Assembly (NCBI RefSeq): GCF_009498235.1
Contig: NZ_CP044205.1
Span: 2,295,389 to 2,359,388 of the forward strand
DNA length: 64,000 nt
From: Candidatus Methylospira mobilis
GTDB lineage: Bacteria > Pseudomonadota > Gammaproteobacteria > Methylococcales > Methylococcaceae
Direction: 5' to 3'
Made by a program: the position numbers and the translations under genes. The notes beneath the pieces were generated by a model, which did no database searches, was not told the DNA's origin, and saw nothing but the letters and a program-made list of their open reading frames with translations. Positions within the stretch are counted from its first letter, which is position 1. The number at the start of each line of letters is the position of its first letter. Below, piece by piece: positions 411 through 59,687 of the stretch.

Positions 411-3400
411 AGCGGCGGCGGATTTGCATCTTATCGAATCAATGAACATAACCGGGCTTAAAGCGCAGATACGCTTACCAGCTCTATGGATCATCGTTGC
501 CGGCAGTTATTTGGCCATGGCTAAAATATGCCTGGAGCTTGGCGCTATCGGCGGCACGATATCACCGTTCTGGCTTCCCGCAGGACTGGTGATGGGATTG
601 ACGCTGGCCCTCGGCTATCGAGTGCTTCCGGGGATTTTCATCGGCCAGTTGCTGAGCGGCGTTCTGCTGGAAACGCATACCGGGTGGCTGGCGCCCTTTG
701 CTGAAGCGGGCGGCAATATCCTTGAGGGCATTATTTTCCGCTATCTGGCAGCCGGCCGGCCCATCACTACCGTGCGCAGCTTCCTGAATGTTCTACCCGG
801 CGCCGCGCTGGGCAGTCTGGCGAACGCCGCCATAGGTGTAAGCGCATTTACCTGGTCCGGTGCCATTAACCCCGACATAGCGCTACAGGCCGCTTTAACC
901 TGGTTCATAGGAGACATAGGCGGCGCCTTGATAATAATGCCGGTAATCGCCGGTTGGAAAATCATCAATTGGAATGTATGGAAAAAAACCCGGTTTCTGG
1001 CGGAATTCGGTTTTTTATCGCTGTTGACGGTTACGCTGAGCTATATCGCATTTTTCGATACATTTTCGCTTCCAAGCTACCCACTGGTATTTTTGCTGCT
1101 GCCGCTGCTGCTCTGGGGAGCCTTCCGCTTCGATTACAGCGCAGTCAATTTGCTCAACGCAATATTGACCGGAGTAGCCGTTGCCGGAACCACCCATGGT
1201 CACGGCCCGTTCGCAATTGCAGCGCCGATCATGTCGCTCACGCTGTTGCAAATATTTACTGCGGCGCTCGTTTGCACTTCATTGCTGGTGATGCTGATCA
1301 ATCGCGAACGCCGGAATGTCATGATTGATATTCGACAGCAGGCAATCGAACTGGAACATCGCGTACAAAAGCAGACAGGAGCATACAGGGCCGCCAACTG
1401 GGAGCTTAGAGAATCGGAGAAGCGTTTCCGCTTTATGCTGGAAACCAGCCCTATTTCGGTACGCATCACCAGCACTGACGGTCGCAAGATCCTGTTTGCG
1501 AACCGGCGCTACGAGGAATTGATCAATGTCTCTGCCGGTCGCGCCATTGGTATCAACCCGACCACCTTTTATAAAAATCCGGACGATTACGAGAGTGTGC
1601 TGAAAATACTGAAAGCGCGCGAAAACATTTTCAATCGTCTGACCGAGTTGAGCGTACCGGGAGCCGGGACCAAATGGGTGCTGGCATCCTACCTGTCTAT
1701 ACGTTACCAGGGAAAAAGCGAGTTTCTCGGCTGGTTTTACGATATTACCGAACACAAACAAGCCGAAGAAAAGCTGACCTTGTCCGATCGGGTTTTCAAC
1801 GAAACCCATGAAGGCATCATTATCACCGATGTCCAAAACCGCATCATCGACGTCAATCCGGCCTTTTGCACTATCACCGGCTATACACGCGACGAGGCTA
1901 TCGGACAAACGCCGCATTTTCTTCGCTCCGGCAAGCAACCCCCCGAATTTTACACCGCGCTGTGGGGCACCTTGAACGAAACCGGACACTGGCAGGGCGA
2001 ACTCTGGAACCGCAAGAAAAACGGCGATCTCTATGCCGAACGCCTGACCATTTCGGCCCTGCGCGACGATCATGGCATCGTGCTGCACTATGTCGCGCTG
2101 TTTTCCGATATCACCCAAACCAAGCAGCAGCAGCAGGCGCTCGAACTGATGGCCCACTACGATGCGCTGACCCAACTGCCCAACCGCGTGCTGTTCGCCA
2201 AGCACTTCAATCAGGCCATTTCTTACAGCCGGCGCGAGTCGGCGCTGCTCGCGGTGTGTTATCTCGACCTGGACGGCTTCAAGCAGGTGAACGACTCGCT
2301 CGGTCATGACGCCGGCGATCAACTGCTGATCGAGGTCGCCAACCGCATTCAGAGCAGTCTGCGCGGAGAGGATACGCTGTCGCGCCTCGGCGGCGACGAA
2401 TTCGCGTTGCTGATTAACGATCTGCAGTCGTTCGACGAATGCGAACAGGTGCTGGTGCGTATCCACCAGGCCATCGCGCAACCGTATTTGATCGGCGGCC
2501 AGGCGGTCAATGTCGCCGCCAGCACCGGCGTAACGCTATACCCCCGCGACGACGCCGACCCCGATACCTTGCTGCGCCATGCCGATCAGGCCATGTATCT
2601 GGCCAAGACCTCCGGACGCAACCGCTATTGCCTGTTCGATAGCGAGCAGGCGCAACAGATGCAGCGCCAAAGCCGGCAACTGGAGCAGATCGAAGCCGCT
2701 TTTGTGCGCAAGGAGTTCTGCCTGTTCTATCAGCCCAAAGTCAACATGTCCAGCGGCGAGGTGGTCGGCATGGAAGCCTTGATACGATGGAATCATCCCG
2801 AGCGCGGCATCGTAGCGCCGGCGGCTTTTCTGCCGGCTGTGGAAGGCAGCGCGTTCGAGATTGTGCTCGGCAACTGGGTGATCGATACCGCATTGGCGCA
2901 GCTGGATAGCTGGCGCGGCATCGGCCTGGAAATCGAAGTCAGCGTCAATATTGCGCCGCGCCACCTGCAGGATCCGGATTTTTTTATCACGCTGCACGCG
3001 CTGCTGGCCCAGCACCCCGTCATCCCGGCGCGCCGGCTGCAGCTGGAAGTAGTGGAAAGCAGCGTGCTGAACGATCTGGGACGCGTCAGCGAAGTCATCG
3101 CGCTGTGCCGCAGGGAGCTGGGGGTCGGCTTCGCGCTGGACGATTTCGGCACCGGCTATTCGTCGCTGACTTACCTGCGCCGCCTGCCGGTAGACAGCGT
3201 CAAGATCGATCAGAGTTTCGTACGCGACATGATCGACGATCCTGAGGATCACGCCATCGTCAACGGCGTCATCGCATTGGCCCGGGCATTCAAGCGCGAA
3301 GTCGTCGCCGAAGGCGTGGAAACCTGCGAACATGGTATGGTATTGTTGGACATGGGCTGCGATCTGGCCCAGGGTTATGGCATCGCGCGGCCGATGCCTG

Positions 3401-3471
3401 CGGATGCGGTTGCGTCATGGGTACGTGATTATCGACCCGATGAGGTGTGGCGCAAAGCGCCTGTTTCCTGA
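394..3471 (+). CDS. MASE1-PAS-PAS-GGDEF-EAL cyclic-di-GMP turnover protein
   Basis: This 1025-residue inner-membrane protein should make and/or degrade c-di-GMP. A multi-helix MASE1 sensor covers about residues 25-310, then come two PAS domains (about 345-460 and 470-585), a GGDEF cyclase domain (about 595-755) with an intact RLGGDEFALL active site, and an EAL phosphodiesterase domain (about 770-1015). The EAL domain keeps the EALIRW motif, DDFGTGYSSL, the VKIDQSF lysine and the AEGVET glutamate, so both catalytic halves look intact and net activity cannot be predicted. I chose the ATG at 394, which overlaps the preceding stop codon; a TTG at 385 and an ATG at 442 are alternatives. The sensed ligand is unknown. 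Confidence 0.9.
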   Translation: MARRNEAAADLHLIESMNITGLKAQIRLPALWIIVAGSYLAMAKICLELGAIGGTISPFWLPAGLVMGLTLALGYRVLPGIFIGQLLSGVLLETHTGWLAPFAEAGGNILEGIIFRYLAAGRPITTVRSFLNVLPGAALGSLANAAIGVSAFTWSGAINPDIALQAALTWFIGDIGGALIIMPVIAGWKIINWNVWKKTRFLAEFGFLSLLTVTLSYIAFFDTFSLPSYPLVFLLLPLLLWGAFRFDYSAVNLLNAILTGVAVAGTTHGHGPFAIAAPIMSLTLLQIFTAALVCTSLLVMLINRERRNVMIDIRQQAIELEHRVQKQTGAYRAANWELRESEKRFRFMLETSPISVRITSTDGRKILFANRRYEELINVSAGRAIGINPTTFYKNPDDYESVLKILKARENIFNRLTELSVPGAGTKWVLASYLSIRYQGKSEFLGWFYDITEHKQAEEKLTLSDRVFNETHEGIIITDVQNRIIDVNPAFCTITGYTRDEAIGQTPHFLRSGKQPPEFYTALWGTLNETGHWQGELWNRKKNGDLYAERLTISALRDDHGIVLHYVALFSDITQTKQQQQALELMAHYDALTQLPNRVLFAKHFNQAISYSRRESALLAVCYLDLDGFKQVNDSLGHDAGDQLLIEVANRIQSSLRGEDTLSRLGGDEFALLINDLQSFDECEQVLVRIHQAIAQPYLIGGQAVNVAASTGVTLYPRDDADPDTLLRHADQAMYLAKTSGRNRYCLFDSEQAQQMQRQSRQLEQIEAAFVRKEFCLFYQPKVNMSSGEVVGMEALIRWNHPERGIVAPAAFLPAVEGSAFEIVLGNWVIDTALAQLDSWRGIGLEIEVSVNIAPRHLQDPDFFITLHALLAQHPVIPARRLQLEVVESSVLNDLGRVSEVIALCRRELGVGFALDDFGTGYSSLTYLRRLPVDSVKIDQSFVRDMIDDPEDHAIVNGVIALARAFKREVVAEGVETCEHGMVLLDMGCDLAQGYGIARPMPADAVASWVRDYRPDEVWRKAPVS

Positions 3472-3628
3472 CGAAAGGTGCCCGATGCAGAATTGATCTT
3501 TTTTATAGTTTTAATCCTGCACCCGGCCTCAGTTCGCTTTACTCTCCTCCTGGCAGCTCTTTCTTGTTTCCTCTGCTATCCGCGAGCGGCTCTATTCAGT
3601 CTATGCGCTGAACAGGCAGCTTCTTTTT

Positions 3629-22911: not shown

Positions 22912-23059
22912 GATTACTCCTGCTGCGAATTAGTACCGGTATGCGATCCGGTAACGGACAACCTGGATTGACGGGATTCGTGTATCTAACGTCCCCAGCC
23001 GGTTGCCATGATTCCGATAACACTCGGTTTTCTTGTGTGCACTACCTACCCTACGTAAA

Positions 23060-23102
23060 CTTCATTTATCCAGCGTTTTACGGCGCTTTCGGATAAAGGA
23101 AG
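23060..23102 (-). repeat. Hairpin H4 of a four-copy stem-loop family
   Basis: On the minus-strand RNA, CTTC-C-TTTATCC pairs with GGATAAA-T-GAAG around a 19-nt loop. The stem has one mismatch at the same place as the other three copies (23418, 23641, 24006). Confidence 0.5.
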
Positions 23103-23121
23103 CGCCCTCGTGAGAAGGCGC
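23102..23121 (-). terminator. Possible terminator after the 23140 gene
   Basis: GCGCC and GGCGC form a 5-bp stem around a 10-nt loop, 20 nt after the stop codon on the minus strand, followed by TTCCTTTA. It overlaps hairpin H4, so the two structures may be alternatives. Confidence 0.35.
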
Positions 23122-23139
23122 TATACCTGGAGCTCTGGA

Positions 23140-23319
23140 TTAATCTGGATCGTGCGTTTGCAGCGCTTCTTCGATTTCTTCTTCAGCGTTCGGATCTGCC
23201 GCAGCCAGTACCTGGGTCTCAGGATCGAAGTCGCCGACGATCAGCTCCCTGTCGCGCAAAGTATCAATTGCGTCCTGAAGAAACGGATCGATTTCAGATT
23301 TTTCATTTTCATTGGTCAT
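23140..23319 (-). CDS. Small acidic phage protein
   Basis: The 59-residue product is strongly acidic (EIDPFLQDAIDTL, DPNAEEEIEEAL). It may be a DNA-mimic or a regulator, but no family is recognised. The ATG at 23319 is preferred; the frame continues to 23331. Confidence 0.45.
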   Translation of the reverse strand: MTNENEKSEIDPFLQDAIDTLRDRELIVGDFDPETQVLAAADPNAEEEIEEALQTHDPD

Positions 23320-23709
23320 TTGTATTTCCAAAAGTTGTGTTTAAAAAGTGCGTTCTCTCCCGCCGTCGCGAATCTTTCGGCCATCGTTGCGGCTGTAACG
23401 GTAATCAGCTACCGACTGCTTTGTTGATCCGGCTACCGTCGCTTTGATTTCAGTGTTTCCTTTCTAAGCTGCCTATACGGCAGCGAACGGCAACCGGATC
23501 AAGAAAGCATTGGGTGCGCGCTCTTACCCGGCGCGCTTAGGATGCGATACATACAGCCAACCGCTATTGCGCAAGCGGAGGTGTAACCAGGACTGACTCG
23601 CGTCTTTTTTCCGTGCGCGAGGACACGGTGTATCGCATTCGCTTTACCGACCATTCTGGTGACATCAACAAAATGGTCAGGAAAGCGCCTTGTAACCAAG
23701 GCAGCAGAA
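23320..23709 (-). other. 390-nt region without a supported gene, holding hairpins H2 and H3
   Basis: Two members of a stem-loop family lie here. H2 pairs 23418-23432 with 23494-23508 (GCTTTGTTGATCCGG on the plus strand) and encloses a smaller hairpin GCTGCC/GGCAGC. H3 pairs 23641-23655 with 23672-23686 (GCTTT at one end, GACCATT as the core). A 100-codon frame crosses the region but has no ribosome-binding site and looks like chance. Confidence 0.5.
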
Positions 23710-23961
23710 TTACGCTGTCGCATCGGTTTCTTTTGCCGGTTGCGGCATTTGGTAGACGAGCCGGAGGAATCTGGCTTCATCCGCACGATCACAATCGTCA
23801 CCGACCAAGGCGATCCAGAAGTTGTTTACGCCGGTTGCTATTGCGCGATGGCAAGCCGCATCAGCACCGCTTTTGGATTTTTCTGCCAGATCAACGGCGA
23901 TTTTGATCTGCCGCTCGGCCTCCTCGGTTATCTCTGTGTACGTCCAGGTTTTTTGTGTCAT
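23710..23961 (-). CDS. Hypothetical first gene of the leftward operon
   Basis: The 83-residue product (MTQKTWTYTEITEEAE start) is helical, with a VNNFWIALVGDDCD segment. A GAGGACGAC ribosome-binding site supports the start at 23961. It is the first supported gene after the leftward promoter. Function unknown. Confidence 0.5.
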   Translation of the reverse strand: MTQKTWTYTEITEEAERQIKIAVDLAEKSKSGADAACHRAIATGVNNFWIALVGDDCDRADEARFLRLVYQMPQPAKETDATA

Positions 23962-24005
23962 GTCGTCCTCGCGTGTTTTTTGGTGCCGGCATTCTTCCGT
24001 CCACC

Positions 24006-24068
24006 GCTTTGTTGAGCAGGCCCACTGTTTGCCCTGCGCTTTACGCGCTGTAACCTGCTCAAGAAAGC
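24006..24068 (-). repeat. Hairpin H1 of a four-copy stem-loop family
   Basis: The arms 24006-24020 (GCTTTGTTGAGCAGG) and 24054-24068 pair over 14 of 15 bases. A small internal hairpin (GCGCGTAAAGCGC) sits in the loop. It lies in the untranslated leader of the leftward transcript. Confidence 0.55.
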
Positions 24069-24222
24069 GCCCTTTTGCTATCAAGGGCGTTCGTTTGCTC
24101 CGCGCTTCGGTTCAAGGGCGCGTCAGGCCTTGGGCGAAATACGCCTTTTATCCTCCGATGAGTCCGTGGGACTCGCTGTTAAAGAGCGCCGCCCGGTTGG
24201 GTGGGTGGCTGCGTCGGGTGAA

Positions 24223-24252
24223 ATATTACACTTACCGTGTAATTTATGTCAA
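24223..24252 (-). promoter_or_regulatory. Leftward early promoter pL
   Basis: On the minus strand TTGACA (24247-24252) and TAATAT (24223-24228) are separated by 18 bp. The spacer and -35 box are covered by two operators, so the promoter should be shut by the repressor in the lysogen. It should drive the recombination operon down to the integrase. Confidence 0.75.
24225..24243. promoter_or_regulatory. Operator OL1
   Basis: ATTACAC-TTACC-GTGTAAT is a perfect 7-5-7 inverted repeat. The same arms occur at 26479-26497 in the rightward promoter. Confidence 0.75.
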
Positions 24253-24267
24253 CACATTACGTGTAAA
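24249..24267. promoter_or_regulatory. Operator OL2
   Basis: TCAACAC-ATTAC-GTGTAAA is a degenerate copy of the operator. Its centre is 24 bp from that of OL1 and it overlaps the -35 box. Confidence 0.6.
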
Positions 24268-24303
24268 TATTTTTATAATCCCCTCGCGCCAACCGACAGG
24301 CAC

Positions 24304-24332
24304 AAAAAAACCCGCTCGTAGCAGGTTGCGGG
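24304..24332 (-). terminator. Rho-independent terminator, distal of a tandem pair
   Basis: On the minus strand CCCGC and GCGGG enclose a 12-nt loop and are followed by seven T residues. It lies between the accessory module and pL. Confidence 0.65.
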
Positions 24333-24333
24333 C

Positions 24334-24358
24334 AATAAAAAGCCCGCCGAAGCGGGCT
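24334..24358 (-). terminator. Rho-independent terminator of the accessory module
   Basis: On the minus strand AGCCCGC-TTCG-GCGGGCT is a perfect 7-bp stem with a stable tetraloop, followed by TTTTATT. It stands 26 nt after the stop codon of the 326-residue gene. Confidence 0.85.
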
Positions 24359-24384
24359 GATTTTGTTATGGGCAACAGGTAGCG

Positions 24385-25365
24385 CTATAGTGACATTTCT
24401 TCCTGTTTTGCAGTTTCAATCCGCTTAAATGACGAAACGAGCATAAATCTAGGTCTTCCTCGCCCATCCATTTCGTACTCACCCGTTACCTCTACTGTTG
24501 AACCAAGTAGCGGACGCACTGCTTCAGCGGTAACTTCCGGAAATACACACCGCAAAGTACCTACCCCAGAGATGTTGCGTAAATGGAATCTTGTCTTATC
24601 AAGGTCAACCTCACGAAATTCACCAGTAAACGTTCCATGTTTTTTGGAATGAAGTTTGGGTTTTTTCAGGGCATCATGAATAACAACGCGCTCGCGTTGT
24701 GATAGTTCAGATGGTTTCTGTCCGGGTACAAAAAGCTCTACCGTATGTATTCCCAACCGGCCTGTTGGCGATAAGCGGTATGCGGCCGTAAGTCCGGCAT
24801 CCCGAGCGGCGGGATCGGGCATGGCCTCATAGATACCCGCATTCAAGCCTTCATCGTCCACAAAACCTGGAATTATAGATAGTTGCCTAATGGCTGATCG
24901 GACTGTTACAAAAACGGGCTCTTGATCGCCATCGAAAAACACATCACCATCACCTGGCTGCAGCTTAACTCCCGCATAAATACTCCCCGGAGCAAAGCCT
25001 GTGAGCCTAATATCAAGATTCTTTGCTAGATGATTGGCGCTACTTTCTGTGAGATCAAAAATTGCCTTTGCAAGCAATCTTAGTTGCTTTTCTGCTCCAC
25101 CAACCAGCCAGTTTATAGCATGTATGCTTGGCAGATAACCTTTAGTGTCCGGGCCTTCTGCATGAAAAACCAAATCTGAGTTTTCAAGCAGTCGCGCCAG
25201 TGGATATTCCTCAGCATAAAGCTGGTCAAGTAACTTGTAATAAGGATTTTCAGCCGCAAAAAACTCATCGTGGGTCATCTGCCCCTGCAGAAGACGCCAT
25301 GCCTCCGCCATTTGCTCATGTATCATGGCTGCGCGATGATGGATCAATGCGTAATTATTCACCAT
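24385..25365 (-). CDS. Accessory-module protein of unknown function (partner of a DUF6932-like protein)
   Basis: This 326-residue protein is not one I recognise. The N-terminal 120 residues are helical (IHHRAAMIHEQMAEAW, GGAEKQLRLLAKAIFDL). The middle has beta-rich segments (GSIYAGVKL, EPVFVTVRSAIRQLS) and the C-terminus resembles a small barrel (GSTVEVTGEYEMDGRGRPRFMLVSSF in short runs). Its start overlaps the stop of the nucleotidyltransferase-like gene by 7 nt, so the two are translationally coupled. Position between the repressor and pL, closed by tandem terminators, is typical of lysogeny-expressed accessory genes. Confidence 0.7.
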   Translation of the reverse strand: MVNNYALIHHRAAMIHEQMAEAWRLLQGQMTHDEFFAAENPYYKLLDQLYAEEYPLARLLENSDLVFHAEGPDTKGYLPSIHAINWLVGGAEKQLRLLAKAIFDLTESSANHLAKNLDIRLTGFAPGSIYAGVKLQPGDGDVFFDGDQEPVFVTVRSAIRQLSIIPGFVDDEGLNAGIYEAMPDPAARDAGLTAAYRLSPTGRLGIHTVELFVPGQKPSELSQRERVVIHDALKKPKLHSKKHGTFTGEFREVDLDKTRFHLRNISGVGTLRCVFPEVTAEAVRPLLGSTVEVTGEYEMDGRGRPRFMLVSSFKRIETAKQEEMSL

Positions 25366-25814
25366 GAATCTATCCTCAAAATACCTTTTTTATCCTTTGC
25401 TTCAAGGCCTTTCGTACACGCGGTTTTTTCACCAACATACTGAAAAAATGACGCGAAGTCATTACCTCCTTGCAATACCGGATAAAAATCTACAAGCATA
25501 TCAGTGCGAAGGCGAAGATGATTACGCTGACAATATAGCACCACCTTTCCGGCAATCAGATCATCAGCGCTACGCAGGTCTATTAATAGCTCTACATCGG
25601 ATGGTATCGGCTTATCGGTAACATAGCTACCGTCTACAAACAATGGGGCGCGCGGAAAACTTTGGGCTCTGAATTCATTCAGCACATCGCCAAGTTTGCA
25701 CCATAGGCTTGCGCGGTGATCATTCCAGCACAAGACTGATTCAGCCTCATCAAGTGTGCACGAATGTACACCGACAGGTAGAAGCCCTTTCTCATTCATT
25801 TGAGGTATCGACAT
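25359..25814 (-). CDS. DUF6932-like predicted nucleotidyltransferase-fold protein
   Basis: The 151-residue protein opens with KGLLPVGVHSCTLDEAE and has a LFVDGSYVTDKPIPSDVELLIDL core (runs split here). G-S-Y followed by D-V-E resembles the GS...DxD/E signature of minimal nucleotidyltransferases, and the opening matches my memory of DUF6932. It lies directly after the repressor gene and before its coupled partner. A toxin-antitoxin or exclusion role is possible. Confidence 0.65.
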   Translation of the reverse strand: MSIPQMNEKGLLPVGVHSCTLDEAESVLCWNDHRASLWCKLGDVLNEFRAQSFPRAPLFVDGSYVTDKPIPSDVELLIDLRSADDLIAGKVVLYCQRNHLRLRTDMLVDFYPVLQGGNDFASFFQYVGEKTACTKGLEAKDKKGILRIDSW

Positions 25815-25872
25815 TACTCATTTCGTCCAGAACTGTAACCGATCTGTACCCGCCTGAAAAATACATTAACAA

Positions 25873-25894
25873 AACCTGTCAACTTTGACAGGTT
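25873..25894. promoter_or_regulatory. Palindrome upstream of the accessory module
   Basis: AACCTGTCAA-CT-TTGACAGGTT is a perfect inverted repeat with 10-bp arms. The two-base centre suits a protein-binding site better than an RNA hairpin. It lies 60-80 bp before the nucleotidyltransferase-like gene and may be its operator. Confidence 0.5.
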
Positions 25895-25908
25895 ACAACC
25901 GCAAAACC

Positions 25909-25927
25909 ACCCACTAAAATAGTGGGT
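25909..25927 (-). terminator. Possible terminator of the repressor gene
   Basis: ACCCACTA and TAGTGGGT form an 8-bp stem with a 3-nt loop just after the repressor stop codon. Only four T residues follow, so termination may be partial. Confidence 0.5.
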
Positions 25928-25931
25928 CTAA

Positions 25932-26414
25932 TCAACCAATCTTCCGTTTGACCAGATCAGACGTGGTCGGCTTTTCGCCTCCATTTTTTATAGTCTGCAA
26001 ACCGTCCATCGCCAACCCCTCCAAGGCTGTCATCACTGATTCAACTGGTGTTCCGCTGAGCAATTTTCGCTCACTCAACGGTGCTAGCAACAAATCAACT
26101 GCCGTCTGAGTTTCAGGGGGTGCGGCGCTATATTGATCCACTATCTGATATGTGGTGGATGTCCTGTACATGTCTGGTACTGGAGCGCTGATCTCATTGC
26201 TCGACTGACTGCCAAACATCAGGAAGCATGGTGTTTTTCCTAGTTTGGTCGCCAGCAGCATGACAGTTTGCGCATCCGGCTCGCGCAGTCCTTGCTCAAA
26301 ATTTGAAATCCTTGATACCGACAACTGCCCTCCCGTCAGATCAGACAGTTGTTGGAGTTTCAGCCCTGCAGCTTCTCTCGCGGCTTTGATGCGTAATCCA
26401 ATTTCTTTTTTCAT
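25932..26414 (-). CDS. CI-like prophage repressor without peptidase domain
   Basis: This 160-residue protein has an XRE-type helix-turn-helix at about residues 6-65 (IKAAREAAGLKLQQLSDLTG and ISNFEQGLREP). The C-terminal half has no Ser-Lys peptidase motif of LexA/CI proteins, so induction cannot be by classical RecA-driven self-cleavage. It is divergent from the Cro-like gene, and the shared intergenic region holds operators. It should maintain lysogeny. Confidence 0.8.
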   Translation of the reverse strand: MKKEIGLRIKAAREAAGLKLQQLSDLTGGQLSVSRISNFEQGLREPDAQTVMLLATKLGKTPCFLMFGSQSSNEISAPVPDMYRTSTTYQIVDQYSAAPPETQTAVDLLLAPLSERKLLSGTPVESVMTALEGLAMDGLQTIKNGGEKPTTSDLVKRKIG

Positions 26415-26430
26415 TGCTCAATTAAGCCCG

Positions 26431-26449
26431 CATACACAACTCGTGTAAA
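26431..26449. promoter_or_regulatory. Operator OR-distal, next to the repressor start
   Basis: CATACAC-AACTC-GTGTAAA keeps the TACAC-N5-GTGTA core of the operator. Its centre lies 48 bp from that at 26479-26497, twice the 24-bp spacing of the pL pair. It may mediate repressor autoregulation. Confidence 0.55.
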
Positions 26450-26472
26450 TCAACTATTCGTGGAATTCACGC

Positions 26473-26502
26473 TTGACTATTACACTTTTGGTGTAATAAT
26501 CT
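26473..26502 (+). promoter_or_regulatory. Rightward early promoter pR
   Basis: TTGACT (26473-26478) and TAATCT (26497-26502) are separated by 18 bp, the same spacing as pL. The operator lies in the spacer. Transcription would start at about 26509, which is the first base of the Cro-like start codon. Confidence 0.6.
26479..26497. promoter_or_regulatory. Operator OR-proximal
   Basis: ATTACAC-TTTTG-GTGTAAT is a perfect 7-5-7 inverted repeat, identical in its arms to OL1. Confidence 0.75.
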
Positions 26503-26508
26503 ATTCAC

Positions 26509-26706
26509 ATGAACCTGATTACATACATCGAGAAAACCGGAGACGCGGCGGCGGCGCACGAGTTCGGGATATCTGAGCGAGCAGCGGCTTCATGGCGTCG
26601 ACGAGAGCGATTCCCTAGCCTGAAAAAGGCCAGAGAAATATCCGCACTGAAAGGATGGACGCTTGAGCAGGTCTATCCAAAACAGGCAGAAGAATGCCAC
26701 CAGTAA
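26509..26706 (+). CDS. Cro-like regulator, probably translated from a leaderless mRNA
   Basis: The 65-residue protein has a YdaS/Cro-type helix-turn-helix (GDAAAAHEFGISERAAASWRRR in short runs). It is divergent from the repressor gene, as Cro is in lambda-like phages. No ribosome-binding site stands before the ATG, and the predicted transcription start coincides with the ATG. It should antagonise the repressor at the operators. Confidence 0.8.
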   Translation: MNLITYIEKTGDAAAAHEFGISERAAASWRRRERFPSLKKAREISALKGWTLEQVYPKQAEECHQ

Positions 26707-26765
26707 ACCGTTCCTCCTGCTCATGCGCCCGCGCCCGTGGCGAGTAACGACGACGTTCGCAGCTT

Positions 26766-26790
26766 GCCCTCTTCCGGTAGGGCTTTTTTT
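26766..26790 (+). terminator. Rho-independent terminator after cro (tR1-like)
   Basis: GCCCT and AGGGC enclose an 8-nt loop and are followed by seven T residues. It would stop pR transcripts just after the Cro-like gene unless antitermination occurs. Confidence 0.8.
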
Positions 26791-26860
26791 GAATTTTAGG
26801 CTTCAGTGCATACAGGTACTCCAATGATTAAGGCGATTAAGCTCGTGATTGAAGACTGCT

Positions 26861-27121
26861 TCAGCTTATCCAGGACTGATCGTCATTTAGGTAGAGCGCC
26901 CTGTAAGCGTAGCCTGCTCTATCAGCACAATCGACGATGTGAGATAGAAAGAGCAGCCCGCTCTTGGCGGGTAGCAAGTAGGCACTATCGGATATGGCTT
27001 GATAGCCTTCTGGAGCCGATTCCAACTTTGATTTTAGGTTGCGCTGGAACGTATCAAGACGTCTGTAATCGTAGCCTTCATGCCATTCAGGTATTTCGAT
27101 CAAAAGCAGTATTTGGTTCAT
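26861..27121 (-). CDS. Hypothetical small protein, opposite strand
   Basis: The 86-residue product (MNQILLLIEIPEWHEG start) follows a GGAG ribosome-binding site at a good distance. It has a compact beta-helix look with AKSGLLFLSHIVDCADRAG. It lies opposite to the rightward genes. No family recognised. Confidence 0.5.
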   Translation of the reverse strand: MNQILLLIEIPEWHEGYDYRRLDTFQRNLKSKLESAPEGYQAISDSAYLLPAKSGLLFLSHIVDCADRAGYAYRALYLNDDQSWIS

Positions 27122-27161
27122 TTTTTAAGCTCCATGGGAAAAAGAATGATGAGGAAGACGC

Positions 27162-27458
27162 ATGAGCGATAAATCCCAAGGGAATAGCGGTACGTCTTTC
27201 GAAGCAAGTGATGAAATCATGGATAAATTCATGGAAAAAACGCTTGCTATCGACGCCGAAACGGATAGATCCAATACCAAAAAAAACCATGTGGGCTTGA
27301 TATACCAATTCGTTACCAACCATGTAGTGCAAACCTCTGTCGCCCTGAGCGCTGATGAAAGCGGCAAACAAAAGCTGGAATACCTACCCGTTGAAGAAGT
27401 GATTGAGCGGTTGTGTGCTGCGTTTGAAAAGGTCAATGACCGCGTAGCAGGCTGGTGA
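27162..27458 (+). CDS. Hypothetical phage protein
   Basis: The 98-residue product follows a GGAAGACGC ribosome-binding site. It is polar at the N-terminus and helical after residue 25 (EIMDKFMEKTLAIDAETD, VEEVIERLCAAFEKV). Function unknown. Confidence 0.5.
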   Translation: MSDKSQGNSGTSFEASDEIMDKFMEKTLAIDAETDRSNTKKNHVGLIYQFVTNHVVQTSVALSADESGKQKLEYLPVEEVIERLCAAFEKVNDRVAGW

Positions 27459-27657
27459 TCGCTGTAACGATGCTTTTTTTTGATGCGATGGGATCTTCCT
27501 GTATGGATATGGCTTTGGCGCACAAGGGGCATGAATACACTGCGCACTGGATTTTATCCGTGTTGCGAACACCGGGTTGCCGATATTCGGCGTCCAGCTT
27601 GTTGATTACGAGCGATTGAATGAATTTTTCGCAGTGTGGACATTTGACTATTTCCAT
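27433..27657 (-). CDS. Small zinc-ribbon-like protein
   Basis: The 74-residue product has two C-x2-C knuckles, CPHC near residue 6 and CPLC near residue 45, so it should bind zinc. A strong GGGAGG ribosome-binding site supports the start. Its 3' end overlaps the convergent 98-residue gene by 26 nt. Confidence 0.55.
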   Translation of the reverse strand: MEIVKCPHCEKFIQSLVINKLDAEYRQPGVRNTDKIQCAVYSCPLCAKAISIQEDPIASKKSIVTAITSLLRGH

Positions 27658-29679: not shown

Positions 29680-30155
29680 CGACGCCACAAAACAAAACCA
29701 TTGCATTCACTGTGCCGGGCGAACCCACAGCAAAGGGTAGGGCGCGCTCAACTAAATCCGGGCGTCATTACACGCCGGATAAAACAGCGCGTTACGAGAA
29801 TCTGGTAAAAATTATTGCGAGCCAGGCTATGAGCGACGCCTTTCCATTCACTGTGTCAGGCGTTGATGAGTTTTCCCACAAAAACGATATAGAGCGCCTA
29901 TTTACAGGCGCCGTCATCCTGACATTTCGCGCGTTTTTCTCAGTGCCAGAAAGTTGGAGCGCTAAAAAGAAAAAATCGTGTCTTCTCGGTGAGATTTACC
30001 CGACAAAAAAACCCGACATCGACAATATCGAAAAAGCGTTGCTGGACGGGATGAATGGCGTTGTGTGGCGCGATGATGTGCAGGTGGTCGATGTGATTAA
30101 AAGCAAGCGATTTGGAAGCCCCGCGCGCGTTGAGGTTGAGGTTACGGCGTTATGA
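29676..30155 (+). CDS. rusA: RusA-like Holliday junction resolvase
   Basis: The 159-residue protein should cut Holliday junctions. It has the FTVPGEPTAKGRAR opening and the KPDIDNIEKALLDGMNGVVWRDD catalytic segment with its conserved Asp residues (KPDIDN, LLDGMN, WRDDVQV). ATGA overlaps at both ends place it in the replication-recombination operon. Confidence 0.9.
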   Translation: MTTPQNKTIAFTVPGEPTAKGRARSTKSGRHYTPDKTARYENLVKIIASQAMSDAFPFTVSGVDEFSHKNDIERLFTGAVILTFRAFFSVPESWSAKKKKSCLLGEIYPTKKPDIDNIEKALLDGMNGVVWRDDVQVVDVIKSKRFGSPARVEVEVTAL

Positions 30156-31114
30156 GCGTACTACACGTAGTTTCCGTTTCCGGAGGTAAAGACTCAGACG
30201 CAACTCTGTTCTTGGCGCTGAATCGATACCCGAAATCCCGAGTGATTCCATGTTTCGCCGACACCGGAAACGAACATGATGCTGTTTATGAGCATCTTGA
30301 TTATCTTGAGGCCGCCCTCGATATAAAAATTGTGCGCCTGAAAGCGAATTTCGAGCGGCAGATCGCACGGAAGCGTCTGTTTATTGCTCGCGACCAGCGC
30401 ACCGGTCGCGATGACCGGGGGCGCAAGTTGCGGTGGAGCAATAAGAGCAAGCGTCGCGCGCTGGAAGCATTGCACCCCACAGGAAACCCTTATCTCGATC
30501 TGTGTATGTGGAAAGGACGCTTTCCTTCCAGGAAAGCTCAGTTTTGCACGCAAGAGTTGAAGCGTGATTTGCTGGTCAACTTCCAAATGGACTTAGTAGA
30601 CGCGGGTCATCGCGTAGTGAGCTGGCAAGGAGTCCGACGCGATGAATCGCTCAATCGGCGCAATGCAAAATTGTTCGAGCGCCTGAACCCACGCTTATAC
30701 GCCTATCGCCCGCTTGTTGATTGGACAGCACAACAGGTTTTCGACTATCTGCGAGAGCGAAGACTAATCCCCAATACCCTCTATAAACAAGGCATGAGCC
30801 GCGTCGGCTGTATGCCCTGCATTAACGCCAACAAAAACGAAATCGCACAAATAGCCGCGCGTTTCCCAGGGCACATACAGCGCATTGCGGAGTGGGAGCG
30901 TCTTGTTTGCGCTGTCAGCAAGCGCGGCTTTGCGACATTTTTCAACAAGGAATTGCATACCGATAAAGGCAATGATCAGCATGTGCATGCCACTAACTGT
31001 ATTGAATCGGTTGTCGACTATGCGCGCACTACCCGAGGCGGAAAGCAATACGGTCTGTTTGAGTCGCATATTGATGTAAGTGAGTGTGCATCAGCTTATG
31101 GGTTGTGCGAATGA
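30152..31114 (+). CDS. PP-loop (PAPS reductase-like) protein
   Basis: The 320-residue protein has a SVSGGKDSDAT PP-loop near residues 8-18, which binds ATP in the adenine-nucleotide alpha-hydrolase family. Later Cys residues (LDLCMW, AQFCTQELKRDLL, GCMPCINANKNEI) may carry sulfur or metal. Phage members are usually called phosphoadenosine phosphosulfate reductases, but a role in thiolation of nucleic acid is just as possible. It lies between RusA and MmcB-like genes. Confidence 0.75.
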   Translation: MSVLHVVSVSGGKDSDATLFLALNRYPKSRVIPCFADTGNEHDAVYEHLDYLEAALDIKIVRLKANFERQIARKRLFIARDQRTGRDDRGRKLRWSNKSKRRALEALHPTGNPYLDLCMWKGRFPSRKAQFCTQELKRDLLVNFQMDLVDAGHRVVSWQGVRRDESLNRRNAKLFERLNPRLYAYRPLVDWTAQQVFDYLRERRLIPNTLYKQGMSRVGCMPCINANKNEIAQIAARFPGHIQRIAEWERLVCAVSKRGFATFFNKELHTDKGNDQHVHATNCIESVVDYARTTRGGKQYGLFESHIDVSECASAYGLCE

Positions 31115-56036: not shown

Positions 56037-56263
56037 TCAGTAATTGACAATGTATTTGACAGGGACGCGGCTACCGGAAGATTACCACTGTCAACCTGTC
56101 AATTTTTACAGTTACGCCGATGCACGGCGCAGGGCTATAATGCCGGTGAGCAATCAGGAAACATAAGCCGTGCAGGGACAGCCGCTTCAACCGTTTACCG
56201 CAATAATCACAATAGCCGCCGATATGAGGCAAAGTTTTGCGTCATATAGGTGGGCGAATTTTT

Positions 56264-56290: not shown

Positions 56291-57139
56291 ATGCAAACTA
56301 TAGATGAAGCCCTGATCGAAAAATTCAAACAAATCCTTTGTGAGCCCCCCTCCCCGGGACGCCAGAAGGAGCAGGTTGTACAGGACTTTCTTGAGCAACA
56401 CACAGAGCTGATTCCGATTCCGAACCGCTTGAACCACCATCTCCATTTTCAATCTGTAGTGTCCAAGTTCCCACTTGGTACTGAACTGACTACAGACTAC
56501 GTCTACATCACAAAAAGTTCTGACGTTTGGAGAGTAACCCTTGTCGAATTGGAGTCTCCGGATAAGCGCATCTTTACCAGTGACGTTAAGAAAACGAATA
56601 CTTCAGCAGAGTTCAATGCAGCGTTGAATCAGGTAAGAAGTTGGAAACACTACCTTGATGAAAACAAAGCCGAAGTAATTCGTCGCCTTGACCCGTTGCT
56701 ACAACCAATAAACATGAGGCGGAACCCCATCGAGTTTCACTTCCAACTCATCATTGGCCGATCCGAAGACAAAAACCTAAGCGTGGAACGGAAGAAACAC
56801 TTTAGAGGACTCATTGATGAAACTGGGATCGACCTTTTAACATTTGACCAACTGATTGACTGGTACAGAAACGATCAGCGCTATAAGAAGCTTGTGCTGC
56901 GCCTCACGGGCGCGCAATACGCTTTCAAGCATATGCATTTCGAGCCGACACAAATTCTTTCGTATGTGGGGCCTGACCGTCTATCCCTAAGCTCCGACGA
57001 GTTTGGGCGCTTAAAGGCTGCTGGATACGAAATGGACAAGTGGAGCAAGGGTGACTTGCTCACCTACAACGTCAAATTTGCAGAATCGACAAGAAACCAA
57101 GAGCTAAATAAAGGACGGCACTCTTTTTACTCTAAATAA
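56291..57139 (+). CDS. Shedu-like nuclease (DUF4263)
   Basis: The 282-residue protein resembles the C-terminal PD-(D/E)XK domain of Shedu anti-phage nucleases. QKEQVVQDFLEQHTELI opens the domain; TTDYVYITKSS and VTLVELESPDKRIF hold the candidate acidic residues; AALNQVRSWKHYL follows. E-x-E replaces the usual E-x-K, a variant I recall in part of the family, so activity should be tested. It lies in the first integron-like cassette with a membrane protein. Confidence 0.75.
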   Translation: MQTIDEALIEKFKQILCEPPSPGRQKEQVVQDFLEQHTELIPIPNRLNHHLHFQSVVSKFPLGTELTTDYVYITKSSDVWRVTLVELESPDKRIFTSDVKKTNTSAEFNAALNQVRSWKHYLDENKAEVIRRLDPLLQPINMRRNPIEFHFQLIIGRSEDKNLSVERKKHFRGLIDETGIDLLTFDQLIDWYRNDQRYKKLVLRLTGAQYAFKHMHFEPTQILSYVGPDRLSLSSDEFGRLKAAGYEMDKWSKGDLLTYNVKFAESTRNQELNKGRHSFYSK

Positions 57140-57216
57140 AGGTGTATAATTTACTTTAGTCGCAACAGGCCATCATTCAAATGAGCTGTTTAGCAATGAA
57201 GACCAAGGAAAGATCT

Positions 57217-57963
57217 ATGTCTCACGATAATACAATCAAAAATTACATGAAGTTTCTTTGGGGACCTCACTTAGCGGAGATTGTTTTTGAGTCGCCCAGC
57301 CGACAAGCAGTATCTAGCTCCGTTCAAAATGCTTCCGTAATTTCCGGGTTTAGTATTGCAGCTATAGCCATAATTTTGGCTACCACCCCTCTAACCTCAC
57401 CTTTATTGATCACTCTTGTTTATTTATTTCTAGCATTAATGCTACTATTTAAATGCGGCGATTGCTTGACCAATTCACTGCATTTTGATGACCCCATAAC
57501 CAACCAGAAAGAACTAAAGTTTTATCGCAGGCAGGTTTACTGGGGATGGAGGCATTATAATCTGGCCATAATAATAATTATTGCATCGATAGCATTTTTT
57601 TCCATTATAAAAATACAAGACCAAAATATACCAAGCCACCTAAAGCTATCCTTGTACACTGCAATTACCTTGGTTTTCGCATGGTGGGCATCATTTTGGT
57701 TTGTGGATTTATGGAAAACAATTATTTTCATTGTAAAATGTGAAGACAAGAATTACAGCAACTACTCGACAGAGCAAAAGAAGTTAATTGAGCGCAATAT
57801 TCTTTTCAAGTTAATCTTGTATTCCGGTATAACTGTAACTTTAACTATATTATTAACTCTTTTGCCTTTTGGTTTTTTTTCTTCATGTGTAGATGTGCAG
57901 GCATTATTAATTACATTGATATTGTTTGCAGTCCTTCGAGCGATAGTAATAGATACATTTTGA
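57217..57963 (+). CDS. Membrane protein with four to five helices, AT-rich
   Basis: The 248-residue product has hydrophobic helices near residues 45-95, 120-145, 150-175 and two at 200-245. The gene is clearly more AT-rich than its neighbours, a sign of foreign origin. AGGAAAG stands before the ATG at 57217. It follows the Shedu-like gene in the same cassette and may be its partner or an independent exclusion protein. No family recognised. Confidence 0.65.
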   Translation: MSHDNTIKNYMKFLWGPHLAEIVFESPSRQAVSSSVQNASVISGFSIAAIAIILATTPLTSPLLITLVYLFLALMLLFKCGDCLTNSLHFDDPITNQKELKFYRRQVYWGWRHYNLAIIIIIASIAFFSIIKIQDQNIPSHLKLSLYTAITLVFAWWASFWFVDLWKTIIFIVKCEDKNYSNYSTEQKKLIERNILFKLILYSGITVTLTILLTLLPFGFFSSCVDVQALLITLILFAVLRAIVIDTF

Positions 57964-58192: not shown

Positions 58193-58684
58193 ATGAGCGA
58201 ATTTGATACGCGGAAGAAGGCTCTACTAGAACCATTATTCATCGAAGCTGGCAACGCATTGATGGATTGCCAGACTTTCGAGTACGGCCTAACGCTTCTG
58301 CTCTTTCATCTTGCCAGACTCGATAGCATAACTCTCGACCCTCAAAAGGTTGCTCTAATTTTGGAGAACCAAGACAAGAAAACGGCAGGCCAGCTAATTG
58401 CCATGCTGAAGAAAAAGGCCAACGTAAGCGACGGTATCGAAAAAGCCTTGGAAGTTGCTCTCGCTTCACGCAACACACTTATCCATCGCATATTGATAGA
58501 CAACGCAGAGAAACTTCCCCAAGCAGAAACGAGGGCATCGCTGCTTAAGGAAATTCGAAGCCTGCGCGCTAATGTTCAAAAGGCAGACAAGAAGTTGCGC
58601 CCGTTCATCCACGCATTTGGTCTCGAACTCGATGGCTTTGACAATCGCCAATTCGAAGCCGAAGCAAAGGCAACGTTTACGTGA
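58193..58684 (+). CDS. HEPN-like helical protein in an integron cassette
   Basis: The 163-residue protein is all-helical. The motif ASRNTLIHRIL gives R-N-x3-H, which resembles the HEPN RNase signature R-x4-6-H. HEPN proteins are common toxins and defence effectors. The gene is the only one between two attC-like sites, so it can move on its own as a cassette. No nucleotidyltransferase partner lies next to it. Confidence 0.6.
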   Translation: MSEFDTRKKALLEPLFIEAGNALMDCQTFEYGLTLLLFHLARLDSITLDPQKVALILENQDKKTAGQLIAMLKKKANVSDGIEKALEVALASRNTLIHRILIDNAEKLPQAETRASLLKEIRSLRANVQKADKKLRPFIHAFGLELDGFDNRQFEAEAKATFT

Positions 58685-58691
58685 ACCCGAT

Positions 58692-58757
58692 GCCCAACCC
58701 TTCAGTCGAGAGGGGCTGCGCAAAAGCGCGCAGCCCCTCACTTTTACGTTGTTGGGC
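58692..58757 (+). repeat. attC-like integron recombination site 2
   Basis: GCCCAAC (58692-58698) and GTTGGGC (58751-58757) are complementary cores. Inside, GAGGGGCTGCGC pairs perfectly with GCGCAGCCCCTC. The CCTTCA and CACTTTTACGTT spacers are common in environmental cassette sites. The next gene starts 3 bp after the right core. Confidence 0.85.
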
Positions 58758-58760
58758 ATC

Positions 58761-59687
58761 ATGATGAGGATCGTGCCATTTATTCTTGGCTTGGCGCTAG
58801 ATATTGCACTCAAGCGCCTGACGCGGCCGCATACGGTCTACTCGAAGCTTGCGATAACAGCACTGCTCATCAGTGGCGGAGCCTTCATCACCCCATTTTG
58901 GCAACAAGCCGTTGAAGGTCTCATTGCGCCCTTGGACAATCCAGGATGCACCGGCCCACTTCCATCTATCGCATCAGGTTCGATTTTTCTCTTGTTATCC
59001 TTTTTGTTTGGATCTATATCGCAAAGGCATTCAACGCAACAACGGGAATCACTTGTAGACACAAAATCGCTCAGTGGTCCTATCTCAATTGGGCAGGCGC
59101 AAGTTTATTGCTACTGCGGGTCGGTATTGGCAATGTCAAACATTGATGTGGTCATTACCTCAGAGAATAGAGATCTACATCTTGGAAGTATTAACGGCAC
59201 TTCTGTTTCAGGAAGAATTAGGCGACTTGCCGCTTCATATAACAGCGATGGAACACTAAGCGCCGACCATCTGCTTAATCACACCATCCAATGGAAATCG
59301 AATCAGCATCACAAGGGACCATACAGATTGGGGCAATGCATAGTCTCTCCCCCATTTAATGCCAAACGTCGCGGCATCAAATCCATAGTTCATGCAATCA
59401 CACTTGAAAAACGTGACTCAGGATTAAATATCGTAGAGGAATCTGCGAACCGAGAAGTAATCGATTTTGTTATCAAACATTGCAACGTACAACAGTATTC
59501 TTCCTTTTTTCTACCAATATTTGGACTCGGTAGTGGTGGCCTATCTCGAGATGATGCGATCTCCAGAACATTAACCCCTCTCATTGCCAAGCTTCGTACC
59601 ACGGCTGCGCCCCTTTCTGTTTATGTGGGAACCTATCGTCTCTCTGATGCAGCAATTGCTTCGACATTTTTGCTGAGAGCGCAATGA
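58761..59687 (+). CDS. Two-helix membrane anchor plus macro (ADP-ribose-binding) domain
   Basis: The 308-residue protein has two membrane helices (about residues 25-55 and 70-90), then a domain at about 115-300 that resembles macro domains: NIDVVITSENRDLHLGSINGTSV and SGRIRRLAA recall the NAAN...GGGV...AI loop, GQCIVSPPF and IKSIVHAITLE the middle strands, and FFLPIFGLGSGG the P-loop-like end. Type II Thoeris effectors are known to have this 2TM-macro layout and to sense an ADP-ribose derivative. The next gene overlaps it by ATGA. No TIR gene is adjacent. Confidence 0.65.
   Translation: MMRIVPFILGLALDIALKRLTRPHTVYSKLAITALLISGGAFITPFWQQAVEGLIAPLDNPGCTGPLPSIASGSIFLLLSFLFGSISQRHSTQQRESLVDTKSLSGPISIGQAQVYCYCGSVLAMSNIDVVITSENRDLHLGSINGTSVSGRIRRLAASYNSDGTLSADHLLNHTIQWKSNQHHKGPYRLGQCIVSPPFNAKRRGIKSIVHAITLEKRDSGLNIVEESANREVIDFVIKHCNVQQYSSFFLPIFGLGSGGLSRDDAISRTLTPLIAKLRTTAAPLSVYVGTYRLSDAAIASTFLLRAQ

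Follow-up and report, generated by a model that had tools for sequence, protein, structure and literature searches.

The P1-P2 Locus and Its Regulatory Sites

The window, the 64,000-nucleotide stretch of the Candidatus Methylospira mobilis genome analysed here, comes from an assembly of one contig (4.7 Mb), and the same stretch forms part of an 86 kb viral contig in IMG/VR. Behind the HTH repressor of the prophage lie the gene for a DUF6932 protein (P1), the gene for a larger partner (P2), two terminators, and then a promoter-like site, all on the minus strand (Table 1). As the original prediction stated, P1 and P2 are coupled by a 7-nt overlap and tandem terminators close the pair; terminator-like sites are above chance in this region (12 in 23000-27500 vs. 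5.6 +/- 2.2 in shuffles).

Table 1. Features of the locus, with positions counted from the first letter of the window.
Feature	Position	Strand	Basis
P1, DUF6932 protein, 151 aa, predicted nucleotidyltransferase fold	25359..25814	-	ORF, PF22014, AF2 model
P1 signature GS-x9-D-x-E, residues 62-75	25590..25631	-	aligned DUF6932 proteins
P1 probable third acid, D109 (VDFY)	25488..25490	-	place on strand 108-113
P2, 326-aa partner, family A	24385..25365	-	ORF
P2 N-terminal helical hairpin, residues 4-62	25180..25356	-	AF2 helices 4-26 and 41-62
P2 C-terminal OB fold (predicted), residues 240-316	24418..24648	-	VIA-align to SSB and PriB
HTH repressor of the prophage	25932..26414	-	HTH_3, E 2.2e-11
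Small divergent cro-like HTH protein, 65 aa	26509..26706	+	weak HTH/repressor matches, best E 0.003
Hairpin directly 3' of the repressor	25909..25927	-	RNA fold
22-bp palindrome 5' of the P1-P2 pair	25873..25894	.	
Tandem terminators 3' of P2	24309..24358	-	24358-24341 and 24327-24309
Right operator set, TTACAC-N5-GTGTAA	26432..26496	.	26480-26496 exact; 26432-26448 with 1 mismatch
Left operator set, TTACAC-N5-GTGTAA	24226..24266	.	24226-24242 exact; 24250-24266 with 2 mismatches
pL-like promoter	24223..24252	-	TTGACA-18-TAATAT, 10/12

Five matches to TTACAC-N5-GTGTAA with at most two mismatches occur in the 64-kb window (1.19 expected; 1 of 100 shuffles had five). Two sets of this operator enclose the repressor together with the P1-P2 module, an arrangement like that of the lambda operators around cI, rexA, and rexB. 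Their presence on either side bears out the earlier placing of the module between repressor and pL, and the left set overlaps the pL-like site on the minus strand, promoter-like sites being at chance level in the region (4 found vs. 4.7 expected). The evidence supports equating this place with the rexAB slot of lambda.

The palindrome noted earlier before the pair is exact, with two 10-bp arms around a 2-bp centre, and no match to it with three or fewer mismatches arose in 100 shuffles of the window. Two hairpins follow the repressor (RNA fold z -3.2 to -3.8), and the palindrome is the second of them; it may therefore serve as a terminator besides being an operator. Together, the two hairpins could block transcription of P1 from the repressor promoter, and a promoter scan found no minus-strand promoter-like site between them and P1; expression of the module in the lysogen is therefore an assumption. 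An operator conserved with the module was considered and rejected, as an exact search of 115 loci with the 18-bp core of the palindrome matched only copies of this prophage.

P1 is a Predicted Nucleotidyltransferase

P1 matches DUF6932 (PF22014, E 2e-23; 83.8 bits vs. a curated cut-off of 27) and contains G62-S63-Y64 and D73-x-E75, in agreement with the GSY...DxE signature first read from the translation. The GS pair, D73, and an acid (D or E) at position 75 are kept in all 76 distinct aligned DUF6932 proteins, and D or E occupies position 109 in 71 of the 76. D109 lies on strand 108-113 of the structural model and was assigned as the third acid on this ground, not by superposition. With this assignment P1 contains GS plus three metal-binding acids (G62, S63, D73, E75, and D109), a set that is complete in 71/76 DUF6932 proteins.

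The AF2 model of P1, built from 18 sequences, has a mean pLDDT of 93.5. When it was compared with known structures by VIA-align, 46 of the best 50 rows were nucleotidyltransferases by title. Scores are modest, with Z under 8 throughout; the best belong to 1ylq and 2rff (both Z 6.2, rmsd 4.0 and 4.2 over 89 and 101 residues), followed by HI0073 (Z 5.5) and by AadA and Cid1 (Z 5.1), with the first unrelated row at Z 4.9. The leading Foldseek rows, none with E <0.001, include MNT antitoxins, HI0073, and polymerase beta. A sequence profile of P1 searched against the PDB matched polymerase beta/lambda, a CD-NTase, and a uridylyltransferase weakly (E 0.13-0.74), its two best matches being unexpected: a subunit of G1-ATPase (E 0.0033) and a fragment of a kinase (E 0.038). 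Judged by the model, P1 has the fold of the DNA polymerase beta-like nucleotidyltransferases and, given this fold and the kept residues, is probably an active nucleotidyltransferase.

P2 is a Putative Nucleic-Acid Binder

The original description of the second protein as unrecognised holds: neither Pfam, NCBIfam, nor PADLOC matches P2 at E<=1, and its sole PHROGs match covers 24 residues (E 0.13). Profile matches to a ribosome hibernation factor are weak (best E 0.038). The AF2 model of P2 (16 sequences; pLDDT 81.9) consists of an N-terminal helical hairpin, an alpha/beta middle part (residues 65-234), and a C-terminal part that VIA-align matches to SSB (4dam; Z 8.8, rmsd 3.6 over 80 residues) and PriB (2pnh; Z 8.7, rmsd 3.3 over 75 residues), OB-fold rows filling the list of structural matches. 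This predicted OB fold resembles those known to bind single-stranded nucleic acid, so P2 is likely a nucleic-acid binder, and its hairpin is possibly a docking part. No recognised toxic active site was found in P2. Over most of its length, the model also aligns with Q6NE06 of Leptospira phage LE1 (Foldseek E 4.3e-8, TM-score 0.38).

Single-sequence searches with P2 found a match in 0/50,697 phage records and 0/72,556 plasmid records, only in its own genome among 369 genomes of the class, in two of 311 genomes of the order (own included), and in viral contigs only in its own prophage. A first alignment (A1) added Methyloglobulus morosus, a member of the same order (Methylococcales), alone among genome contigs and nothing new among viral contigs; a later one (A3) found 15 other viral loci and, among 299 genomes of the phylum, the own genome only. 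No further members of this family were found in phage or plasmid records. DUF6932 itself is present in 17/398 genomes of the phylum and 5/369 of the class (own included).

DUF6932 Proteins Pair with Four Partner Families

The pairing of P1 and P2 recurs in other genomes, an outcome in favour of the original reading. P2-type partners (family A) occur at 17 loci, comprising this prophage, 15 further IMG/VR loci, which include near copies of each other, and Methyloglobulus. A DUF6932 gene lies directly upstream in 17/17, with overlaps of 4, 7, or 16 nt. The same is true of 31/31 viral loci of a second partner family (C). P1 and P2 are a genuine pair, conserved together.

Starting from DUF6932, a partner of one of four families lies directly downstream in 30 of 35 loci, the own locus apart. 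The families were defined on these same 35 loci and the classing profiles were built from some of them, so this count documents the recurrence of partners and is no test of a prediction. One locus (L006) was counted as paired by annotation and Pfam. Besides P2-type proteins, the partners comprise family B, which corresponds to PADLOC PDC-M63B (the L048 partner matches at E 1.5e-154); family C, of which the member at L051 has no PADLOC match and no member was found in phage records; and family D, an XRE domain plus an ImmA/IrrE peptidase, exemplified by the L008 partner, which matches PD-Lambda-2_B at E 3.6e-74. Two family D members are short, at 137 and 142 aa. The exceptions are two loci with no recognised partner (L009 and L059), one with a fused DUF6932 (L023, see below), one with an internal stop (L029), and one at a contig end (L030).

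DUF6932 pairs are spread over prophages, plasmids, and chromosomes. For plasmids, six of 12 matches were examined, and L008/L010 and L019/L020 are near copies. In Methyloglobulus, the pair sits between two genes recognised by eye as guaB and guaA, and no adjacent phage gene was noticed; within this interval (L013), a Phd/VapC-like pair (2934-3598, +), also recognised by eye, adjoins DUF6932-P2. An Acinetobacter plasmid (L007, 3959-5679, +) encodes a DUF6932 and ImmA/IrrE pair beside Tn7-like tnsD/tnsE. In one viral contig (L023, 3911-5191, +), DUF6932 is fused at its C-terminal side to what by eye resembles an alpha/beta hydrolase, possibly a further effector type.

The position next to a repressor recurs as well. 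The lambdoid-type phages mEpX1, vB_EhrS_59, and PhiR30_1 have a family B pair with cI on one side and the N or kil region on the other. At the 15 other viral family A loci, ten upstream genes were chosen by eye as possible repressors; eight of these ten contain repressor domains (HTH and/or S24; S24 in six) and two have no domain match, and some are separated from the pair by one or two genes.

Kinship and Joint Inheritance of the Partners

Profile comparison with hhalign relates three of the four families. Families B and C align at E 3.5e-11 (probability 97%), A and B at E 3.9e-5 (71%; lowest E 0.13 in 20 column shuffles and 0.22 on reversal), and A and C at E 1.9e-4 (47%; column shuffles 0.077, reversed 0.0051), while A and D show no kinship (E 0.47). 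By this measure P2 is a distant relative of PDC-M63B. The N-terminal hairpins align between B and C (E 9.5e-4 vs. 0.16 for reversed controls; E 0.0021 with other cuts) and, weakly, between B and D (E 0.0019 vs. 0.06-0.1). A single docking hairpin common to all partners was rejected, as the family A hairpin could not be aligned with the hairpins of B, C, or D.

A tree was built from 70 of the 76 distinct DUF6932 proteins; six labelled as having no partner were left out, among them that of L006, which does have one. In this tree the four partner classes require three changes, the minimum, against a mean of 30.9 when shuffled. Support is 99/99 for C, 100/96 for D, and 97/77 for A, and B also groups, apart from one long-branched exception. 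Three proteins (L005_B, L078_A, and L064_B) have long branches and an unsure place, and a program warning marks L005_B and L106_C as possibly misjoined. Family A groups with D (100/94). As the partner classes group in this tree and A falls with D, an OB-type and a peptidase-type partner were exchanged, in either direction, at least once. Within family A, the identity matrices of P1 and P2 are correlated across 15 loci (r 0.876; 0/5000 permutations as high), and the two proteins are inherited jointly.

Likeness to Known Systems

The nearest named relative is PDC-M63AB; the PDC systems are unpublished candidates of Payne et al. 2021 (PMC11811056). It shares with P1-P2 a DUF6932-type first gene, a second gene of about 310 aa, an overlap of the two, and an occurrence in prophages. 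P1 matches PDC-M63A at E 3e-7 over residues 7-82 only, judged without PADLOC's own cut-offs. However, P2 does not match PDC-M63B at E<=1, P1 has GSx9DxE instead of DxD, and P1 belongs to its own DUF6932 branch (A, 97/77), nearer the group with XRE-peptidase partners. Among 16 family A members, one matches PDC-M63B (E 0.036) and two match PDC-M32A (best 4.6e-5). When a PDC-M63AB pair carried by a prophage of E. coli NILS69 was deleted, tests with 10 phages gave no sign of defence activity, for which the authors give limited phage diversity as one possible reason (PMC12409345). A megablast search of E. coli genomes with the DNA of L048 found no match.

The second relative is PD-lambda-2. On a Rhizobium lentis plasmid (L008), a DUF6932 gene replaces the first gene of this system, directly before homologues of its B (3.6e-74) and C (5.5e-38) genes, and a plasmid locus of Agrobacterium fabrum (L010) has the same annotated layout. 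In the PD-lambda-2 of Vassallo et al. 2022, by contrast, the first gene is HigB-like and a third gene is present, which the P1-P2 pair lacks (PMC9519451). P2, which matches nothing in PADLOC or Pfam at E<=1, is likewise no XRE-peptidase.

L008 also provides defence context, with GajB (a Gabija-type helicase, 2.9e-175) and Drt6 (a DRT reverse transcriptase, 1.1e-155) encoded 5' of DUF6932. Ten nearby proteins were scanned across loci; six match PADLOC models at E<=1e-10, namely GajB, Drt6, PD-lambda-2_C, a type III restriction enzyme (L050), PDC-M62A (L009), and a NERD protein (L048), and four do not.

HEPN-MNT (HepT/MntA, type VII) resembles the pair in having a small nucleotidyltransferase with a GS...DxD-like signature beside a partner, but its motif, GSx10DxD, differs from the GSx9DxE of P1 (PMC7641770). 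Neither P2 nor the 16 family A members have a HEPN or DUF86 match in Pfam at E<=1. The second acid is Glu in 12/15 DUF6932 proteins of family A, and in MntA changing both acids to Glu abolished modification of HepT (PMC7641770); this counts against the model proposed below.

RexAB of lambda is similar in place, downstream of the repressor between cI and oL, and in including one putative nucleic-acid binder, but RexB is a membrane effector, and P1 is more likely an enzyme in solution. Compared by sequence, neither RexA nor RexB of lambda showed significant kinship (hhalign best E 0.15; RexA against the family B profile gave E 0.017 and 1.5 bits in a two-sequence hmmsearch). A RexAB-type defence pair, RexABpp of P. 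putida, lies downstream of a CI-like repressor (PMC12894663). DUF6575, a domain listed among those of experimentally selected defence systems (PMC9519451), occurs in phage proteins of which one aligns with the P2 model (Foldseek E 2.4e-6, 310 columns) at a low TM-score of 0.27 and rmsd 13.1, with no Pfam sequence match of P2. In the literature searched, which leaves outside most subscription papers and all preprints, we found no paper that names DUF6932, one each that names PDC-M63 and DUF6575, and, among the titles and abstract openings covered, no description of the P1-P2 pair, which may be described elsewhere.

Other Defence-Like Genes in the Window

A Shedu-type SduA protein is encoded at 56291-57139 (+; PADLOC E 5.2e-90), which gives the prophage a likely second defence gene. 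About 180 bp before it, at 56093-56114, lies a near copy of the palindrome with three mismatches in 20 arm positions relative to 25873-25894; no match as good occurred in 300 Markov sequences, and a 4-mismatch match occurred in 5/300. As the palindrome recurs before the Shedu gene, P1-P2 may share a regulator with it. The two copies could be a common regulatory site of two defence loci, a link that we noticed post hoc and in which the second copy is less palindromic.

Elsewhere in the window, a protein encoded at 30152-31114 (+) matches PADLOC SspD (2.3e-23) and BrxP (3.8e-16). A 371-aa protein (58572-59687, +) has membrane-like segments and an end that, by eye, resembles a macro domain, and near it a 260-aa membrane-like protein is encoded (57181-57963); neither has a PADLOC match at E<=0.001.

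Proposed Function

P1-P2 was originally read as a toxin-antitoxin or superinfection-exclusion pair. Its conserved pairing, its kinship with PDC-M63AB and with the family of PD-lambda-2 B, and its rex-like position stand behind this reading; the NILS69 deletion (PMC12409345) tells against it. On the kinship and the position, we favour phage exclusion of a toxin-antitoxin-like kind: a two-gene anti-phage module in the rex slot, in which the nucleotidyltransferase P1 controls an OB-fold partner, P2. To this specific model we give an even chance of being right. What was computed directly is the pairing, the overlap, the folds predicted for P1 and the OB part, the catalytic signature, the operator-flanked position, and the joint inheritance. 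Further points against the model are the modest structural scores of P1, the failure of P2 to match PDC-M63B or to show a recognised toxic active site, the family A hairpin that aligns with no other family, the two hairpins ahead of P1, and the four of ten neighbours that match no PADLOC model at E<=1e-10.

In this model, the module would act by abortive infection or superinfection exclusion and would be on in the lysogen. P1 would sit on P2, perhaps at the hairpin, and hold it inactive; in the simplest form of restraint P1 would attach nucleotides to P2, as the MntA antitoxin does to HepT. On infection by another phage, P2 would meet phage nucleic acid, or its modification would be lost, and the freed P2 would make the infection fail by stopping growth or replication.

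P2 is cast as the harmful part and P1 as the restraint mainly because, in the PD-lambda-2 system that was tested, the B protein is toxic alone and is rescued by the preceding gene (PMC9519451). The OB fold and the catalytic signature by themselves would also fit reversed roles, with P1 a toxic enzyme acting on RNA or nucleotides and P2 a nucleic-acid-binding sensor and antitoxin that releases P1 on infection, as RexA activates RexB. Only P1 has a kept catalytic signature, P2 looks like a binder, and at other DUF6932 loci the partner is an XRE-peptidase. Proteins of that type are generally antitoxins or regulators. RexA-type DNA binders, moreover, occupy the same slot (PMC12894663). Yet it is the XRE-peptidase that is toxic in PD-lambda-2, and DUF6932 genes without a recognised partner exist (L009 and L059), and we regard the reversed assignment as a serious but rather unlikely alternative.

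A plain addiction pair, which would stabilise the prophage and have no anti-phage function, would account for the two-gene overlap, the spread over prophages, plasmids, and chromosomes, the Methyloglobulus pair in the guaB-guaA interval beside a Phd/VapC-like pair, and the NILS69 deletion without phenotype (PMC12409345), but it fits poorly with the repeated use of the rex slot and the defence-system neighbours, which make it improbable. Least probable is a lysogeny helper, in which P2 would bind nucleic acid and P1 would tune the phage switch or protect the repressor in the way of Hex of phage 434, which is encoded in the repressor operon and keeps the repressor from cleaving itself (PMC3564112): a repressor is often nearby, but DUF6932 pairs also occur on plasmids and chromosomes with no phage switch seen beside them.

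Returning to phage exclusion, we conclude that P1-P2 is probably a phage-exclusion module of toxin-antitoxin type and forms a new branch next to the candidate PDC-M63AB. More tentatively, and with the balance against it, DUF6932 may found a family of defence modules in which one nucleotidyltransferase "A" is combined with an exchangeable "B", either an OB-fold protein (families A, B, and C) or an XRE-ImmA/IrrE peptidase, DUF6932 then replacing the HigB-like protein of PD-lambda-2. Control in this family would be by nucleotide transfer, temperate phages would have filled the rex slot with it repeatedly, and its regulator may here be common to the Shedu gene.

These results assign DUF6932 to a likely enzyme class, connect it with four partner families and a genomic slot that recurs, and add a new branch whose second protein is unrecognised by the 2023 PADLOC models. 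They also turn an unnamed PADLOC candidate into testable hypotheses, namely which partner is toxic, whether it is nucleotidylated, and which phages are excluded. As an instance of part-swapping in defence systems, a nucleotidyltransferase that has moved from one partner type to the other, OB-fold or protease, would make a useful test case.
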